DNA of 64,000 nucleotides, taken from contig NZ_CP028897.1 of the NCBI RefSeq assembly GCF_003072645.1, positions 3,361,658 to 3,425,657 on the forward strand, given 5' to 3'. This DNA is from Dongshaea marina (GTDB lineage Bacteria; Pseudomonadota; Gammaproteobacteria; Enterobacterales; Aeromonadaceae). Shown here in pieces: positions 7,338 through 50,290 of this stretch. How positions within the stretch are numbered: position 1 is the stretch's first letter; every line of letters starts with the position of its first letter. The position numbers and the translations under genes were made by a program. The notes under the pieces are model-generated. The model saw only the letters and a list, made by a program, of their open reading frames with translations, ran no database searches and was not told the DNA's origin.

Positions 7338-8109
7338 TCGCAATGTACTTTTTAGCTTGAATCGATTGAGGATATTTACGCATCAGCTCGGCACCATACT
7401 TATGGACTCCCGCCGGATGGTCATCCGCCTCTTCCAGCTTCACCCACAGCCATAAGCTATCGGCAGTGGCTAAGTTGTCTTTACCATAGCGTGCCAGGTA
7501 GCCCCGGGCCGAAGCCAGATCCTTTTGCTGCAATGAGATATCGGCCAGTCCCAACAAAATCGTGGGGTTTGATGGCTCATATCCAAGTGCACGTCTGTAA
7601 TAATCTTTCGCTTGTGGGGTATCTCCCGCACTCTGAGCACAAACGGCAGCATTTTCGTAGGTGCTGGCAACCTTGATGTAGCCAGGCACCGCCACCGCTC
7701 GCAAAAACATCTTCTGCGCTTTAGCATAGTGTTTCTCGGAGCAAAGGAAGGTCCCGTAGTTGTTAAGGATATCAGGATTGTTGGGCGCCATGCCAAGGGC
7801 TTTTTGATAAGAGGCGTCAGCCTGTGACATCTCTCCGACGCTTTGGTGGAAATAAGCGATGGCGGCATAGATCATCGGATTACGAGGATCATAGCTCAGA
7901 GCCTTCTCAAGATTGTATTTCGCCTGAACTGCATCTCCCTGCTGCAGATACTGCAGCCCGAGATCCAGGCGATTCTTGGCCGCATTCTTCGGCTCAAAGG
8001 TCTGAACCGTATGAGTCTGCTTATTATCGACATAGGTCGTCTCCTGAACACAGCCCGCCAGCAGAAGCGCTACCATCCCTATGCTCAGGAGTTGTAATCC
8101 TCTTTCCAT
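7327..8109 (-). CDS. pilF: PilF/PilW type IV pilus assembly TPR lipoprotein
   Basis: 260 residues. The lipobox LLAGC follows a short signal sequence, so this is an outer-membrane lipoprotein. Six or so TPR repeats follow (for example NPMIYAAIAYFHQSVGEMSQA, trimmed to its core here as PMIYAAIAYFHQSVG, and the NPDILNNYGTFLC repeat). PilF is the pilotin that helps PilQ secretin multimerise. It sits between rlmN and rodZ, its usual place. It overlaps the start of rodZ. Confidence 0.92.
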   Translation of the reverse strand: MERGLQLLSIGMVALLLAGCVQETTYVDNKQTHTVQTFEPKNAAKNRLDLGLQYLQQGDAVQAKYNLEKALSYDPRNPMIYAAIAYFHQSVGEMSQADASYQKALGMAPNNPDILNNYGTFLCSEKHYAKAQKMFLRAVAVPGYIKVASTYENAAVCAQSAGDTPQAKDYYRRALGYEPSNPTILLGLADISLQQKDLASARGYLARYGKDNLATADSLWLWVKLEEADDHPAGVHKYGAELMRKYPQSIQAKKYIANEY

Positions 8110-8129
8110 TCCCTAGCCATCAGATTAAA

Positions 8130-9254
8130 TTAGGATTCACAGATTTTGACGGAAATCGCTTCGTTCTGCATCCGTTTTTTGATGACTCGCTTGGTTCTGT
8201 CGATTACGTCACCAACCAGCTGTCCACAGGCGGCATCAATATCATCGCCACGGGTCTTGCGCACTATGACGGTGTAGCCATACTCCATCAATACCTTGCT
8301 GAAGCGGTCGACCCGGCTGTTACTGGGCTTACCAAAAGGGCTGCCCGGGTAGGGATTAAAGGGAATGAGGTTAATCTTACAGGGGGTGTTCTTCAACAGA
8401 CGCGCCAACTCGCGGGCATCATCCATATCATCATTGATGTGATCGAGCAATACATATTCGATAGTGACCTTGCCCTGGTTGGCATTGGACTTCTGAACAT
8501 AGCGGTGAATGCCATCCAGCAGCTCCCGAATGTTGTACTTATCGTTGATCGGCATGATCTCGCTGCGAAGCTTATCATTGGGAGCATGCAGCGAAACCGC
8601 CAGCGCAACATCAATCTGATCGCCCAGCTTATCCAGGGCGGGTACCACTCCGGATGTAGACAGAGTTACCCGACGTTTGGAGAGCCCAAAGCCATAATCA
8701 TCCAGCATCAGCCCCATTGCCGGCACCACATTATTAAGGTTCAGCAACGGCTCTCCCATCCCCATCATCACCACATTGGTGATGGGGCGCTGGCCGGTCT
8801 CGCCCTTAAAGCCAATCGACTTGGACGCCCGCCATACCTGACCGATGATCTCAGAAACCCGTAGGTTACGGTTAAAACCCTGCTGAGCCGTAGAGCAGAA
8901 ATGACACTCAAGGGCACAGCCGACCTGAGAGGAGACACACAGGGTCGCGCGGTCTTCATCCGGGATATAAACAGTCTCAACTTCCTGATCGCCAACCTGC
9001 AGGGCCCACTTGATGGTGCCGTCACTGGAGCGCTGCTCACGGGCGATCTCAGGCGCACGGATCTCGCAGCGCTGCTGCAACTTGGCACGCAGCACCTTAT
9101 TGATGTTGGTCATTTCGTCGAAGTTGTCACAACCAAAATGGTAGATCCACTTCATTAACTGATCGGCACGAAAGGGTTTCTCACCCAGATCAGCCATCAG
9201 CTGACGCATCCCATTCCGATCAAGATCTAGCAGATTGATTTTAGTTTCACTCAT
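8130..9254 (-). CDS. rlmN: RlmN, dual-specificity 23S rRNA / tRNA adenine-C2 methyltransferase
   Basis: A radical-SAM enzyme that methylates C2 of A2503 in 23S rRNA and A37 of some tRNAs. 374 residues from [16 protein letters not shown]. The radical-SAM cluster motif CALECHFC is present, along with [13 protein letters not shown] and the C-terminal catalytic Cys (DIDAACGQL). A longer frame to 9332 exists, but MSETKINLL matches the family start. In relatives it lies directly after ndk; here about 18.4 kb of other genes separates the two. Confidence 0.95.
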
Positions 9255-43198: not shown

Positions 43199-44248
43199 AT
43201 GAGTCCTGAAATATTTGCGATGTTTAAGGAAGCAGCCCATATGTTTGTTTTCTTAGCCGCAGAGCTTACCATTTTGTTCATTGCCATCAGCTATCTGGTT
43301 GGTGTGCTTCAGGAGTTCATCACTCCTGAAAAGATCCAATCGATCTTAAGCTCACGCAAAGGCAAAGGCTATGTGATTGCTGCGCTGCTCGGCTCAATCA
43401 CTCCATTTTGCTCCTGCTCGACCATCCCCTTTCTCAAGGGGCTACTTCGTGCTCGAGCGGGCTTTGGACCTATGCTGGTATTCCTCTTCAGCAGTCCACT
43501 GCTCAACCCGGTGATCATAGGCCTGTTTGTAGTGACCTTTGGGATCAAAGTCGCACTCTTCTATTTCCTGGTTGCCATGCTGGTCTCTATCAGTGCCGGC
43601 TTACTCCTGGAAAAGCTGGGCTTTGAAAGGTATGTACGCAAAGAGGCTTATGAGGAAACCGCAACTCCTTCGGGCTGTGGCACTTCAAAAACGAGTTCCG
43701 GATGTGGCTGTGATTCAGCGCCTAAGGTGAGTACTTCACACTGTGAGTCAGTGCGTGATCCGAGCAAGGCTTCAGATTGTGCGGGCTCAGTTACGATGAA
43801 CCTGAGCGGGGAAGCTGTATTGACTATCAAAGAGGAGAGTCGCTGGCTTCGGGTCTGGCGTACAACCTGGAAGGACTTTAAGCAGGTACTGCCTTACCTG
43901 CTGGCAGGAATTTTACTCGGATCTTTCATTTACGGCTTTATCCCCACGGATCTGATTGCGCAATACGCAGGGGCTGGTCATTGGTATGCGATTCCCATTG
44001 CGGCTGTGATCGGCATCCCGCTGTATATTCGTGCCGAAGCTGTGATCCCCCTGAGTGCGGCCCTGGTCAAGAAAGGGATGGCGATGGGCTCTGTGATGGC
44101 ACTGATCATCGGTAGTGCCGGAGCCAGCCTCACCGAGGTGATCCTTCTGAAATCTATTTTTAAGAATCAGATGATTGCCGCCTTTTTGACCGTGATCCTG
44201 ACAATGGCGATCGGTGCAGGCTACCTGTATAGCTACCTGTTTGCCTGA
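43199..44248 (+). CDS. Permease of the YraQ/ArsP (DUF318) family
   Basis: 349 residues with about eight membrane segments in two groups, separated by a large Cys-rich cytoplasmic loop (GCGTSKTSSGCGCDS). The family signature TPFCSCSTIPFLKGLL, with its Cys pair, is present, as is GIPLYIRAEAVIPLSAALVKKG. ArsP members export trivalent organoarsenicals; others are of unknown cargo. The Cys pair and the downstream ArsR gene support a thiol-reactive metal or metalloid substrate. Confidence 0.82.
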   Translation: MSPEIFAMFKEAAHMFVFLAAELTILFIAISYLVGVLQEFITPEKIQSILSSRKGKGYVIAALLGSITPFCSCSTIPFLKGLLRARAGFGPMLVFLFSSPLLNPVIIGLFVVTFGIKVALFYFLVAMLVSISAGLLLEKLGFERYVRKEAYEETATPSGCGTSKTSSGCGCDSAPKVSTSHCESVRDPSKASDCAGSVTMNLSGEAVLTIKEESRWLRVWRTTWKDFKQVLPYLLAGILLGSFIYGFIPTDLIAQYAGAGHWYAIPIAAVIGIPLYIRAEAVIPLSAALVKKGMAMGSVMALIIGSAGASLTEVILLKSIFKNQMIAAFLTVILTMAIGAGYLYSYLFA

Positions 44249-44254
44249 CAAGTC

Positions 44255-44287
44255 CCCCACTCTACCTCTTCTATGAGTAGAGTGGGG
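44255..44287 (+). terminator. Long hairpin between the permease and the next gene
   Basis: An 11-bp perfect stem (CCCCACTCTAC with GTAGAGTGGGG) and an 11-base loop, starting 6 bases after the permease stop. No T-run follows, so it may be an mRNA-stabilising or attenuating structure that lets less of the downstream genes be made. Confidence 0.5.
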
Positions 44288-44319
44288 TGACACTTCATCA
44301 CAAAAGTTGAGAGACAGAT

Positions 44320-44532
44320 ATGATTAAGAAACCCATAGTCCTGGCACAAATTCTATTGATCTCTTTTATCTTGAGCCTTGTCTCTAAAAACACAGATGTT
44401 GTTCAGGCATACCCGATAAGCTCCGCCATCGCCATTGCACTCCTGAGCATTGGCTCCATCATGGTGGCAGGAATACTCCGGGATAGATTGAAGAGTCCGC
44501 AGTCATGTTACTCTGACAACAAAGAGGATTGA
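44320..44532 (+). CDS. Small membrane protein in the permease operon
   Basis: 70 residues with two hydrophobic segments (about 7-22 and 30-52) and a polar tail with one Cys (PQSCYSDNKED). A ribosome-binding site (GAGAG) lies before ATG. I recognise no family. Its place between permease and regulator suggests an accessory role. Confidence 0.55.
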   Translation: MIKKPIVLAQILLISFILSLVSKNTDVVQAYPISSAIAIALLSIGSIMVAGILRDRLKSPQSCYSDNKED

Positions 44533-44612
44533 GTTCATGGCTCGATACGGCATTGAAGCCCTCATCTGTACTGTGTGAATATAATGAAGAGCAAAATAGA
44601 GGTGGAGATATC

Positions 44613-44945
44613 ATGAATATTGAGATCGCGGCTAATGCACTCAAGGAGTTGGGTCACCCGACGAGGCTGACCATCTACAAATGCGTGGTGAAGGCTGGAT
44701 ACCAGGGGATCTCAGTGGGCGGGATCCAGGCCCAGCTGAACATTCCAGCCTCAACCCTGTCTCATCATATTTCGGGCCTTGTCTCTGCTGGCCTTGTCAG
44801 TCAGAGAAGAGAGAGCAGAACCCTGTATTGTGTTGCCCAATACCAATACCTGGACTCAGTGATCAACTTTCTTGTTGAGGAGTGCTGTATTCACGAGCCG
44901 GGCGAGCAGCACCACCGGCCAGGCATTAAGCCCTCAAAGGCCTGA
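44613..44945 (+). CDS. ArsR/SmtB-family repressor
   Basis: 110 residues from MNIEIAANALKELGHPTRL, with AGGTGGAG before ATG; the longer frame from 44529 is less likely. The winged helix (IPASTLSHHISGLVSAGLV) is the ArsR type. A Cys pair (EECCIHEP) in the C-terminal part could bind a metalloid or metal. It is co-directional with the permease and probably represses the operon from the site at 43155-43169. Confidence 0.85.
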   Translation: MNIEIAANALKELGHPTRLTIYKCVVKAGYQGISVGGIQAQLNIPASTLSHHISGLVSAGLVSQRRESRTLYCVAQYQYLDSVINFLVEECCIHEPGEQHHRPGIKPSKA

Positions 44946-45157: not shown

Positions 45158-45751
45158 ATGAAAAAAGGCAGACCCCTCACATTCAACCCCGATATCGCAC
45201 TCTCAAAAGCGATGGAGCTCTTTTGGAAAAAAGGCTTTGAGGCCACCTCAACGGCAGATCTGATGCAGGCGATGGGGCTTTCCAAAAGCAGCCTGTATCA
45301 AAAATTTGGCTCCAAGCAACAATTATTCGAGCAGTGCCTGGATCTTTACATCAAAAATGAAAATGCTATCTTCCATGAGTGCATCGAAAATGCGTCATCT
45401 GCGAAAGCAGCCATCCTTGAGATGACCCGGTTAATTGCCTTTCCTGCCGAGCAAAGCAAAAACTCAAAGGGCTGCTTCTTTGTAAACTCGATCTGTGAGC
45501 TGTCCGAAGACAGCACGGCTAAGCTTGTTTCCTCACGAATCGCAAAAGAGATGGAGAGGACACGCCAGGCGATCGAAGGCCTGTTAGCTCAGGCCCAGAG
45601 TGAGGGAGAGATGTGTAACACCAAGTCCCCTAAAGAGCTTTCCTCTTTATTGATGACTTTCATTATCGGGCTAAAAGTCATCAATAAGATGGAAGCCAGC
45701 CCAGAGACGGTAAACTCCCTGGTTGAACAGATCCACGAAATCCTAGCATAA
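45158..45751 (+). CDS. TetR/AcrR-family regulator
   Basis: 197 residues. The helix-turn-helix is STADLMQAMGLSKSSLYQKFGSK, given here by its core GLSKSSLYQKFG. The ligand domain includes SKGCFFVNSICE, a segment seen in TetR proteins that control quinone or electrophile efflux. It converges with the efflux genes. Its likely operator is the palindrome at 48385-48398 before emrA. It lacks a clear ribosome-binding site (no AGGAG before ATG). Confidence 0.85.
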   Translation: MKKGRPLTFNPDIALSKAMELFWKKGFEATSTADLMQAMGLSKSSLYQKFGSKQQLFEQCLDLYIKNENAIFHECIENASSAKAAILEMTRLIAFPAEQSKNSKGCFFVNSICELSEDSTAKLVSSRIAKEMERTRQAIEGLLAQAQSEGEMCNTKSPKELSSLLMTFIIGLKVINKMEASPETVNSLVEQIHEILA

Positions 45752-45797
45752 AACTATATGTCAGGATCTCGTACTATACTCGCTATCTGGCAAGCCT

Positions 45798-47360
45798 CTA
45801 ATGGAGCGCTATTCCCTCTTCATGCCCCTGCTCTACCCTAAACCAACCCCCTGGCTTTTTCAGTAAAAATGCCATGGGGATCATCAGCAGTGACAGTAGC
45901 ATGGTGAAGAAGAGTATATCGTTAAAGGCGATCATCGCAGACTGGGAGCCGAGCATGTTCTGCAGCAGCGCGACATCCTGTAAGTTAGAGAGCGAATACC
46001 CCTGGGCGTGAAGCCAGTTTCTCAGGTTTGGATTAAGCGGAGATAGCTGACCCCCAAGCTCATTCCAGTTCACCTGAGTCAGGCTAACATTGATGGTTGC
46101 CATGATGGAGACTCCGATTGAACTCCCTATACTTCGTGCTGAATTAAAAAGCCCTGAAGCTTCATCCCTGTCCTTCGATGAGAATCCCTGAAACGCCAGC
46201 TCCATCAAGGGTAGGAAAATAAAGCCGATTGCCAGCCCCTGGAGTATATTTGGAACAAACAACACAGAATCATTCACCAGCAGTGAAAAACTGGTCATCA
46301 TAAGATAAGAGCTACAGGCGGTGAGTACCAATCCTGTGATGACCAGAAGATAGGCTGGTACTTTACGGATCAGAGCTGACACAAGCATCATGCCAACAAT
46401 CCCAAAGATACCACGCACAGATATCGCCTCACCGGCACTAAATGCCGGGTACCCCAACAAGGTTTGTAAAAACTGGGGCAACCAGGTGACCAGCCCGACC
46501 GCAATCATGACAAAGAACATCAAAATAATAGAGGAGCCGGTAAAAAGTCTGTCTCTGAACAGGTTGAGGTTTATGATGTTCTGCGGGCCTAATTTGATTC
46601 CCCGGAGCAAAAACACAATGAAGCTAACGAGCGAAACTCCAGATAGAATTACGATGAGGTTCGAGTCAAACCAATCTTTGGAGGCTCCTTGATCCAGGGT
46701 GACCTGAAACGCACCGATACAAAGGCTCATGAGGAGTAACCCATACCAATCGATATTCTTGGGCTGCTTTTCTGTGTCCTTAATGAAGACGACCAGCAGG
46801 GGCAGAACCAGCATGATGATCGGGATATTCACGAAAAAATCCCAGTGCCAACTGACATTTTCAGTCAGGTAACCTCCCATGATCGGTCCAAAGACTGGCG
46901 CCGCCATCACGCCCATACCATAGATCCCCATGGCAGCTCCCAGCTTTGATTTATCCTTCTCCATGAATAACTCAGTGATGATCGATTGAGATATCGGTGC
47001 CATCAGGGCGCCAAAGGCTCCCTGAAACCCACGAAAAATAATCATCTCTTCAAGACTTGTGGATAAACCACACAGCATAGAGAAAATCCCAAAACCAACC
47101 ACCACTGCGAGTAGTAACTTTATACGACCCAGTCGTGCGGTTAAAAAACCACTCAGGGGCATGACGATGGCAGACATGACCACATAAGAAGTCACCGTCC
47201 AGCTGATCTGCTCCTGAGTCGCTCCCAGGGCACCTCCCATATCCTTTAGTGATACAGAGACTATGGTCATGTCGAGAATTTCTACGGCTGTCACCAAAGT
47301 CAGTATGCTAGTGACCAACCAGGGAATAAAATTACTCTGTGAGTCAAATGCCTTGCTCAT
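45798..47360 (-). CDS. emrB: EmrB/QacA-type 14-helix MFS drug exporter
   Basis: 520 residues with 14 membrane segments. The DHA2 signatures are LDMTIVSVSLKDM at the N-terminus, the motif A-like LSGFLTARLGRIK and motif C GPIMGGYL. With EmrA it forms a pump that spans the envelope with TolC. It starts 2 bases after emrA. Confidence 0.9.
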   Translation of the reverse strand: MSKAFDSQSNFIPWLVTSILTLVTAVEILDMTIVSVSLKDMGGALGATQEQISWTVTSYVVMSAIVMPLSGFLTARLGRIKLLLAVVVGFGIFSMLCGLSTSLEEMIIFRGFQGAFGALMAPISQSIITELFMEKDKSKLGAAMGIYGMGVMAAPVFGPIMGGYLTENVSWHWDFFVNIPIIMLVLPLLVVFIKDTEKQPKNIDWYGLLLMSLCIGAFQVTLDQGASKDWFDSNLIVILSGVSLVSFIVFLLRGIKLGPQNIINLNLFRDRLFTGSSIILMFFVMIAVGLVTWLPQFLQTLLGYPAFSAGEAISVRGIFGIVGMMLVSALIRKVPAYLLVITGLVLTACSSYLMMTSFSLLVNDSVLFVPNILQGLAIGFIFLPLMELAFQGFSSKDRDEASGLFNSARSIGSSIGVSIMATINVSLTQVNWNELGGQLSPLNPNLRNWLHAQGYSLSNLQDVALLQNMLGSQSAMIAFNDILFFTMLLSLLMIPMAFLLKKPGGWFRVEQGHEEGIALH

Positions 47361-47362
47361 GG

Positions 47363-48346
47363 TTAAGCCTTGGATGCATTGACGGTCACATTGGCACTGG
47401 CCCCCATACGTAACGGCTTGGAAACAGGCAGTGACTGGGTAAACTTAATTTTTACCGGGAATCTCTGAGTCACCTTGACCCAGTTTCCGGTCGCATTCTC
47501 GGGTGGCAAAATGGAGAAGCTTGAGCCACTTCCATCACTGATGTCTGCAACTTTTCCGTGAAGCTTGAGCCCGGGATAGAGATCCAGTTCAACATCAACG
47601 GACTGACCCACCCTGATCTTAGATAAGTCAGTTTCCTTGAAGTTTGCATCAACCCACCAATTTTTAGACTCAATCACCACGAATTGGGGCTGCATTTCAG
47701 TAATCGCATCCCCGGCTCTGAGGCTGAGCTTTTCTATGGTTCCATCTGCAGGAGCCAAAACCCGGGTATGCTGTAAATCTAATTCAGCTTGGGCCAATAC
47801 CGCTTTCGCCTGACGGAGCTGGGCATTCATATCTCCCGGGTTACCAAGCTCAACCTGAGTCTTATCCAAAGCTTGCCTGGCCACTTTTAAGCTGGACTGA
47901 GCAACCGCGAGCCTAGTCTGGGCATCGTCTTTTGCTGAGACAGGACTCTGTCCTGCCGCCACTAGGGCAAGGATCCTGTCGTTATTTTTTTGCGCTAACT
48001 GCAGCTGTGATTCTCTCTCCCGGACCATCGCCTTATCACTGAGGATCTGTGCCTGCATCGACTGGATATTCTGCCGAGTGAGATCCAGTTCAGCCTTTGC
48101 CTTGGTTACCGCAATCTCAAACGGCCGGGAATCCAGTGTAAATAACAGCTGCCCTTTGGTTACCTCTTGATGATCAGAAACCTCAACCGATGAAACCTGC
48201 CCCGACACCTGGCTGGAGATCTGATCGACATGGGCTTTTATATACGCATTGTCAGTACTTGGATGAAGAGAAGAATAGCGCCAGTAAAATGCCAGACACC
48301 CCACGACCACCAGTGCAATGACTGCAATGAACACTTTCTTTTTCAT
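47363..48346 (-). CDS. emrA: EmrA/HlyD-type membrane fusion protein
   Basis: 327 residues. One N-terminal membrane anchor (about 5-22), then a lipoyl-like half (SSLHPSTDNAYIKAHVDQIS), a coiled coil (about 80-180), and the second lipoyl and beta-barrel part (VLAPADGTIEKLSLRAGDAI). It couples EmrB to an outer-membrane channel of the TolC type, which is not in this window. It is the first gene of the efflux operon. Confidence 0.9.
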   Translation of the reverse strand: MKKKVFIAVIALVVVGCLAFYWRYSSLHPSTDNAYIKAHVDQISSQVSGQVSSVEVSDHQEVTKGQLLFTLDSRPFEIAVTKAKAELDLTRQNIQSMQAQILSDKAMVRERESQLQLAQKNNDRILALVAAGQSPVSAKDDAQTRLAVAQSSLKVARQALDKTQVELGNPGDMNAQLRQAKAVLAQAELDLQHTRVLAPADGTIEKLSLRAGDAITEMQPQFVVIESKNWWVDANFKETDLSKIRVGQSVDVELDLYPGLKLHGKVADISDGSGSSFSILPPENATGNWVKVTQRFPVKIKFTQSLPVSKPLRMGASANVTVNASKA

Positions 48347-48669: not shown

Positions 48670-49650
48670 TTAGTTATAAATAAATTGGCCATTTTTGAAA
48701 AAAGTAGAATCATCAAAGGAGAGGCTGCCTCTTGAAAATATAAGGTCCAAATGATGGCTGCCTGAGATCCCTCCGCCAAGCCCAAGGTGTAATCCAGGAT
48801 GTCTCTCCTCAAAACCCGCATTTCTTCCGTAGAGCTCTTTTATGCCGATATTGGTTCCTATCCCAAACTCTTCAATGATTGAGTTACCCTGGTTGTGGTT
48901 AAGATACTTCATGAAGTCATCTCTGAATTGATGATTGTTCGTATGAAAATCAACCACCTTACTAGCCTCAACTTTCAGCATCATTAATTCATCAACGACA
49001 CCATATTTTATCGCAAAAGGCACGGTGCTTAAAAATGTACCGCTAAAGCATATCTCACCAGATAAATCTTTTATTCTTGTGGCAATCTCTCCTGGAACTA
49101 CATCCGGATTTCCAAAGCCATCAATAGATGTCCATTTTGCCTCATCATCTAATGTCCCTGTAATTTTCCCTCCATAACCATCATGGTAAGATAGCTTTTT
49201 TGCCGCTCCAGATAAGCAAATCAGATCATTATTGATAGCTCTAATCGTATCTGGCCCCTCTTGAAATGCGGTATCAAAATAGACGCCATAATCTTTAAAG
49301 ATCACAGACTTCTTCCATGTTCGAGACAAAACGTTTTTGAGTTCAACAATGAATGACGGGCCCTTGGGCATAGGTTTTTTAAGTGTTGCCGAAGAGTATA
49401 TAAAGATGTAAATATCTGATGAATCAATCTGCTCTTCAACATAATCGGAGGGAGATAGAGACAAATTAATGACATTAACACTGGATATATTTTTCAAGTG
49501 ACATGATTCAGAAATAGCTAAAGACAACTGCATATTCTCTTCATCTGAACCTATGAGAACTCTGATGTTATTACCTTGCTTTACCTTTTCTGAGATGGCT
49601 GGATGATTCTTTAAGCATTCATACATGTTATAAATACTTTGGCTCTTCAT
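48670..49650 (-). CDS. M29 aminopeptidase / dihydroxypyridine-dioxygenase-like metalloprotein
   Basis: 326 residues from MKSQSIYNMYECLKNHP; the start at 49701 would run through a hairpin and is not used. The C-terminal half has the pattern of the M29 (aminopeptidase T) / 2,5-dihydroxypyridine dioxygenase superfamily: VVPGEIATR, IIEEFGIGTN, then HPGLHLGLGGG and HHLDLIF, giving Glu, Glu, His and HxD residues that bind the metal. The metal ligands thus look kept, so it may be active. It follows a 36-codon peptide gene and is AT-rich like it. Its likely job is to process or modify that peptide. Family identity is by eye and only moderately sure. Confidence 0.6.
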   Translation of the reverse strand: MKSQSIYNMYECLKNHPAISEKVKQGNNIRVLIGSDEENMQLSLAISESCHLKNISSVNVINLSLSPSDYVEEQIDSSDIYIFIYSSATLKKPMPKGPSFIVELKNVLSRTWKKSVIFKDYGVYFDTAFQEGPDTIRAINNDLICLSGAAKKLSYHDGYGGKITGTLDDEAKWTSIDGFGNPDVVPGEIATRIKDLSGEICFSGTFLSTVPFAIKYGVVDELMMLKVEASKVVDFHTNNHQFRDDFMKYLNHNQGNSIIEEFGIGTNIGIKELYGRNAGFEERHPGLHLGLGGGISGSHHLDLIFSRGSLSFDDSTFFKNGQFIYN

Positions 49651-49683
49651 TTCAAATCCTATATTCCTCTTTATCAAGATAAA

Positions 49684-49710
49684 ATATAGAGGATGAAACA
49701 TCCTCTATAT
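49684..49710 (-). terminator. Intercistronic hairpin between the small peptide and the M29-like gene
   Basis: A perfect 12-bp stem (ATATAGAGGATG with CATCCTCTATAT) and a 3-base loop, followed on the minus strand by TTTTATC. It lies 11 bases after the peptide stop and 33 bases before the enzyme start. It would act as a partial terminator, allowing much more peptide than enzyme to be made. Confidence 0.7.
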
Positions 49711-49721
49711 CATGACATGTC

Positions 49722-49832
49722 TTATGGCCAAAGCGCTGTACCAAAAGGTACCACTGCACTTTCATTCATGATTTCAACACCATCTTCATGCGTTTCTTCA
49801 TCTAACCACTCTTCAAAAACTATATCCTGCAT
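49722..49832 (-). CDS. Candidate 36-residue precursor peptide
   Basis: A short frame too small for standard gene finders: MQDIVFEEWLDEETHEDGV then EIMNESAVVPFGTALWP. It has a good ribosome-binding site (AAGGAG, 11 bases before ATG). The first two thirds are strongly acidic (leader-like) and the last third is uncharged and hydrophobic (VVPFGTALWP), which is the layout of a RiPP precursor. It is followed by a hairpin and the M29-like gene. No homologue is known to me; the assignment rests on layout and context. Confidence 0.55.
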   Translation of the reverse strand: MQDIVFEEWLDEETHEDGVEIMNESAVVPFGTALWP

Positions 49833-50290
49833 TGGAATTTCTCCTTACTGAATGCCTAATTTAGAATGCTTGCTTAAAGAGTCTTGAGACTCGAATAGAA
49901 CCCTACCACACCCACAGCAACGATCAACACCCCAGCAACAACCACATTACATTTATGTTACATGCATTCATCCTGTCACCTCCTACATCTACAAAAAACG
50001 ACAAGTATGAATTTCTTAAGGCAAGTGCCCTTGAATCAAAGTTGTAGGATGCAACTCTCATAAAGAAAGTTAGCCGCAATTAGTCATGAAGCTGAACGGC
50101 ACATAAGAAGAGAGCGAAAGGACAAGCCCGGCAGAAACAACGGATCTTCTCGGAGTTGAGGAAACAGCAAAGTCCTTAGTCTACTGAACCAAACTCTATC
50201 AATGGGTCTTTGCGAGATCACCAAGCTGAGTAAAGCTAGCGTTGTGAGCGAGCCCGGCAACATTATCGATGCAAATTAAGGGAGTAAATC
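49833..50290. other. Control region of the small-peptide locus
   Basis: On the minus strand TTGATC and TAGGGT lie 16 bases apart near 49900-49930 and may form the promoter of the peptide gene. Further up are two direct TTACAT repeats (plus strand, 49947-49952 and 49958-49963) 11 bases apart, which could bind a regulator. The remaining part to 50290 holds no gene that I can support. Confidence 0.4.

Follow-up and report, generated by a model that had tools for sequence, protein, structure and literature searches.

Results

A short peptide gene and a metalloprotein gene on one strand

The window, by which we mean the whole 64,000-nucleotide stretch of Dongshaea marina DNA that was analysed, carries on its minus strand a short gene for a precursor-like peptide and, after it, a gene for a metalloprotein that resembles the M29 aminopeptidases and the crocagin protein CgnB. 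The features of the locus are the following:

49841..49846, minus strand: AAGGAG, the ribosome-binding site of the peptide gene, 8 nt ahead of its ATG, assigned from the sequence
49722..49832, minus strand: precursor-like peptide gene, 36 aa, stop included, translation MQDIVFEEWLDEETHEDGVEIMNESAVVPFGTALWP
49755..49832, minus strand: acidic leader-like part of the peptide gene, 26 codons (26 distinct peptides aligned)
49725..49754, minus strand: core-like tail VVPFGTALWP of the peptide gene, family pattern [VI]V[PSA][FV]GTA[LMF]W[PAS]
49683..49711, minus strand: 13-bp stem-loop between peptide and enzyme genes, the sole terminator-like site in the 2 kb scanned
48670..49650, minus strand: gene of the CgnB/M29-like metalloprotein, 326 aa, putative ligands E188, E261, E282, H288, H300 and D302

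The peptide contains ten acidic residues and neither Lys nor Arg before its neutral tail, and the GC content of the two-gene region is about 36–40%, as against about 47–56% in the flanks; the initial annotation, which had described a well-initiated gene for an acidic leader with a neutral end and a same-strand M29-like gene in AT-rich DNA, is thus confirmed in these points. The enzyme frame is open from an ATG at 49701, but the homologues do not support this longer version: in the alignment they begin near 49650, and the ATG at that position is probably the true start. The pair is bordered by emrAB and an nlpI-like gene. Farther along the window, an ArsP-type permease gene is followed by an ArsR-like regulator (43199–44942), adjoined by a TetR-EmrAB module (45158–48346), and this arrangement is unrelated to the pair.

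Peptide and enzyme form a conserved pair

Enzyme homologues with 42–52% identity to the window protein were found at 91 loci in Photorhabdus, Burkholderia, Paraburkholderia, a genus that we call Pseudomonas-like on account of its gene content, a Pseudomonadales genus (f116) and an Enterobacterales genus (g44). The peptide gene adjoins the enzyme gene at 89 of these, nearly always directly upstream, and at the two others (L016 and L057) the end of the contig cuts the side on which relatives carry the peptide. A genome-wide scan gave 41 loci (13 in Photorhabdus, 27 in Burkholderia, one in Paraburkholderia), and tblastn against plasmid records located the enzyme on second replicons of three Burkholderia species (46–47% identity), each copy preceded by a 40-residue reading frame ending in VVPFGTALWPV. 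Matches occurred in 8 of 398 genomes in a survey of the phylum, one of them (G447) with a distant relative only, and in 73 of 199 sampled genomes of the Pseudomonas-like genus, one of which gave only a weak 29-position match. The window's genome holds one copy, and searches of phages, viral contigs and 60 of its relatives yielded no enzyme homologue. The enzyme tree broadly tracks taxonomy, with the window protein on a long branch, and the pair turns up repeatedly in bacteria associated with soil and insects, many of them unrelated.

The peptide gene is under strong purifying selection, with a dN/dS of about 0.06 (pooled pairwise) in Photorhabdus and in Burkholderia alike, where in most Burkholderia the comparison covers only the C-terminal ~27 codons. 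This value rejects neutral drift, which the initial annotation had named as one way in which its proposal might fail, and the 36-residue frame is kept beside the homologues. With 89 of 91 loci paired and this degree of constraint, peptide and enzyme are a conserved pair, far beyond chance. In Photorhabdus akhurstii (L047, 10004–11600), the peptide gene is intact and the enzyme gene is broken by an apparent IS200-type insertion, which amounts to a natural knockout.

Across the 26 distinct aligned peptides, V2, G5, T6, A7 and W9 of the core do not change, so GTAxW is invariant, and variation affects core positions 1 (V/I), 3 (P/S/A), 4 (F/V), 8 (L/M/F) and 10 (P/S/A); the residues after the Trp are free (P, PV, PF, PL, PM, PI, PH, AV or SS). 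In the leader, the best-conserved positions, counted from the core, are W (−18), TH (−13/−12), A/V (−9/−8) and MM (−6/−5), and W(−18) and M(−5) are likewise unchanged throughout. Between lineages, the core is better conserved, with 7–10 of 10 identical positions compared with 6–15 of 26–29 in the leader.

The two genes form a portable unit

In Photorhabdus, the pair lies between ribE and cfa in a gap of 1,523 nt that holds just these two genes, and ribE and cfa are 50–480 nt apart in 25 of the 30 Photorhabdus relatives checked. In g44, the ribE–cfa site is empty and the pair lies elsewhere in the order enzyme–peptide, with the enzyme gene at 8019–9050 of locus L120 and the peptide gene from 9326, downstream on the same strand. 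The neighbours vary by lineage: in the Pseudomonas-like genus they are genes for an amino-acid permease and a pseudouridine synthase of the rluB type, in Burkholderia a GNAT acetyltransferase together with an Lrp-type regulator or with other genes, and in Paraburkholderia, f116 and g44 they are different again. Neither a known RiPP-class enzyme, as the initial annotation had already remarked for the window, nor a dioxygenase was present among the neighbours scanned, and no protease or transporter recurs beside the pair with any consistency. The same annotation had proposed EmrAB as the exporter of the product; we reject this, because other loci have different neighbours and EmrAB adjoins no other copy. 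GNAT genes adjoin the pair in Burkholderia, where they are of two kinds (L037, 10972–11481; L005, 10905–11483), in g44 (L120, 9587–10090) and in f116 (L066, from 2532). Since identity among these GNATs does not exceed 30%, since they lie on different sides of the pair and since none adjoins the window, Photorhabdus or Pseudomonas-like copies, their adjacency is probably coincidental, with an association being possible.

Strong stem-loops occupy the same position between the genes in Photorhabdus, Burkholderia, Paraburkholderia and the Pseudomonas-like genus. The element folded clearly in five peptide-first lineages (z −1.9 to −4.3) and more weakly in f116; it is without a U-run in most lineages, and an Rfam search returned no RNA element. 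In the window it is the only terminator-like site of the region scanned; it would favour an excess of peptide over enzyme, and it probably lowers enzyme expression relative to that of the peptide.

The enzyme has an M29-type fold and a conserved metal site

Neither the enzyme alone nor narrow family profiles matched anything in Pfam, NCBIfam or the PDB sequences, and none of 13 family members scanned matched Pfam M29. Distant relatives do match Pfam M29, one above the curated cut-off, and no Pfam M29 protein was found in the window's genome or in 40 relatives. With an AlphaFold2 model built from 31 sequences of the window protein and its homologues (mean pLDDT 79.7, pTM 0.78), Foldseek returned 2,5-dihydroxypyridine dioxygenase with the best E-value (1.9e-13), AmpS and PepS, CgnB (6zsv, 1.8e-9) and CgnE (6zsu, 2.7e-8); the sole further match below 0.001 spans 120 columns, and the TM-scores of the folds are moderate (0.50–0.61). 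A fold search of viral proteins with the same model gave no real match. According to the model, the enzyme has an M29 fold and is CgnB-like. Confidence is lowest near residues 207–212, 275–282 and 294–298, partly around the metal site, and the fine geometry of the active site is therefore not to be read from the model. The initial annotation had pointed to M29-like proteins in the crocagin pathway, and CgnB and CgnE are indeed M29-derived (PMC10070186).

Among sequence profiles, only that of the broadest alignment (A4) found a match among the PDB sequences, with CgnB at the top but weak (E 0.066). The A4 alignment pairs E261, E282, H288, H300 and D302 with glutamates, histidines and the aspartate of CgnB, whose metal ligands are given as E161, E252, E274, H280, H291 and D293 (PMC10070186); E188 lies outside the aligned stretch and is matched to CgnB by spacing and invariance only. 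All six residues are invariant in 17 of 17 sequences, down to relatives of 17–23% identity, which bears out the earlier impression that the ligands are kept.

Longer M29-like relatives (373–397 aa; L068, L069 and L070 of genus g263, and L055 of G447) share a conserved C-terminal tail, DDCCGL[IT]K or DDCCGLLR, as if a Cys-Cys peptide had been fused there, and the relative L108 (G1343) has a similar CCG tail. The Pseudomonas-like genome G1343:C1 (L108, L110, L121) encodes, besides the canonical enzyme, a second M29-like paralogue that is only distantly related and a third protein that matches weakly, a set that could let different peptide cores be compared.

Discussion

We propose that the locus is a self-contained, two-gene RiPP-like cassette in which a stand-alone metalloprotein of the CgnB type acts on the core of the peptide, a reading to which we give a probability of roughly 0.7, and that the pair is probably a small, still undescribed pathway making one conserved modified peptide. 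The small gene would encode a precursor whose leader is acidic and whose C-terminal core reads [VI]Vxx-GTA-x-W, and the second gene an M29-derived protein whose two-metal site is predicted to be intact. By analogy with crocagin, the enzyme most likely binds the precursor and acts on the core near GTAxW. Its likeliest action would be a modification that depends on the metals, whether elimination, cyclisation or oxygenation, and aminopeptidase trimming is the less likely alternative. The residues after the Trp are probably dispensable or removed, as they vary, and leader removal and export, if any, would fall to general host functions, since no protease or transporter accompanies the pair consistently. 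The cassette reading is favoured by the near-constant pairing, the well-conserved core, the selection on the peptide and the CgnB-like fold with its aligned ligands, and also by the isolation of exactly two genes between ribE and cfa in Photorhabdus, by the unlike neighbours elsewhere, by the reversed order in g44 and by the stem-loop after the peptide gene; against it stand the lack of a CgnC-type dioxygenase partner among the neighbours scanned, the weak sequence link to CgnB, the moderate TM-scores and the low confidence of the model partly around the metal site.

The rivals fall in the order trimming, subunit role and toxin–immunity. A specialised peptidase that merely trims or cleaves the peptide, and so frees an unmodified VVPFGTALWP-like signal or inhibitor, would agree with the M29 fold, the six retained ligands and the presence of AmpS and PepS among the nearest solved folds. 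However, M29 aminopeptidases need the Tyr of the catalytic set EEHYHD (PMC7023490), and across the enzyme family there is no Tyr between H288 and H300, an outcome that goes against the plain aminopeptidase which the initial annotation had named as a refutation of its proposal. CgnB, which also lacks this Tyr in the aligned stretch, showed no aminopeptidase activity (PMC10070186), and an aminopeptidase would have to strip 26 leader residues to reach the core, so that we regard mere trimming as unlikely.

Somewhat less likely still is a role of the peptide as a small subunit or regulator that sits in the cleft of an enzyme acting on another molecule. For a RiPP, the core varies unusually little, and members of the CgnE type bind peptides apparently without catalysis (PMC10070186), but the acidic leader and a stem-loop favouring peptide excess fit a precursor better, the residues after the Trp vary freely and no other linked gene points to another substrate. 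A toxin–immunity pair, in which the M29-like protein would destroy or bind a bacteriocin-like peptide toxin, accords with the portable two-gene unit, the AT-rich insert in the window and the sporadic distribution; we nevertheless consider it improbable. The peptide lacks a secretion signal and the pair a linked exporter, the core hardly varies where a toxin would diversify, and P. akhurstii retains the peptide despite its interrupted enzyme gene, a state that would be hard to tolerate if the peptide were a potent toxin. Control of the enzyme gene in cis by the small frame, as a leader or arrest peptide like TnaC or SecM, is suggested by the conserved C-terminus, the Trp-Pro end and the stem-loop before the enzyme gene, but it is largely refuted by the reversed order in g44, where no leader is possible, and is at odds with a stem-loop mostly without a U-run and with conservation of the N-terminal half.

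Should the cassette reading be correct and the peptide be modified by this enzyme unaided, the pathway would rank with the smallest of the RiPPs. It would also give a chemistry to a branch of the M29 superfamily whose only studied peptide-acting members, CgnB and CgnE, work together with a dioxygenase. That the core stays so constant from Beta- to Gammaproteobacteria suggests that it has a conserved target, or a role like that of a cofactor or signal, and is less in keeping with a diversifying bacteriocin; a conserved product that serves some general purpose is a better fit than strain warfare. A bolder and more tentative idea, which we find conceivable but would not yet favour, is that of a new RiPP class, in which a single M29-type two-metal enzyme, without a dioxygenase, ATP-grasp, radical SAM or YcaO partner, turns the GTAxW core into one widely shared signal, cofactor or inhibitor of Pseudomonas-like bacteria, Burkholderia and Photorhabdus. 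The two core sequences searched were absent from the open full-text literature covered, which likewise held no other paper on CgnB and RiPPs. The crocagin authors report CgnB/E homologues of 21–42% identity in about 100 genomes, Beta- and Gammaproteobacteria among them, and they looked for precursors beside homologues present as single copies (PMC10070186). Our family probably lies outside that set, given its identity of about 12–13% to CgnB/E over the structural alignment and its commonness in at least one genus.

Relation to known systems

The closest comparison is with crocagin. There CgnE binds the precursor mainly via the core, and CgnB, which carries two metals, appears to be the catalyst of an elimination and cyclisation that follow the step of the dioxygenase CgnC (PMC10070186). 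The window enzyme shares with CgnB and CgnE the M29-derived fold, a similar length, the six ligands E/E/E/H/H/D, the absence of a Pfam family, the lack of the M29 catalytic Tyr in the aligned stretch and a short peptide encoded alongside, with Trp at or near its C-terminus. It differs in its low identity by structural alignment and in being a single copy with no degenerate CgnE-like partner. In contrast to crocagin, no CgnC dioxygenase, hydrolase or methyltransferase is linked among the neighbours scanned, the leader is acidic instead of basic, and the core is GTA[LMF]W without Tyr instead of IYW.

The M29 aminopeptidases (AmpT, AmpS, PepS; PF02073) have the fold and the dinuclear metal ligands in common with the window family, which differs in its lack of a direct Pfam M29 match and of the catalytic Tyr, in being shorter and in lying beside a conserved peptide gene. 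The 2,5-dihydroxypyridine 5,6-dioxygenase NicX (7cn3, 7cup) is the best fold match by E-value, and its identity is 13–14%. NicX is a mononuclear iron enzyme of nicotinate breakdown, whereas the window family keeps the full six-ligand set.

Methanobactin and PQQ (with PqqA) are made from minimal RiPP loci, in which a short precursor lies beside few enzymes and the product logic is conserved. Their enzymes belong to other families, and here there is one enzyme gene, accompanied at 89 of 91 loci by what is expected of a RiPP, namely a linked short precursor with leader and core.
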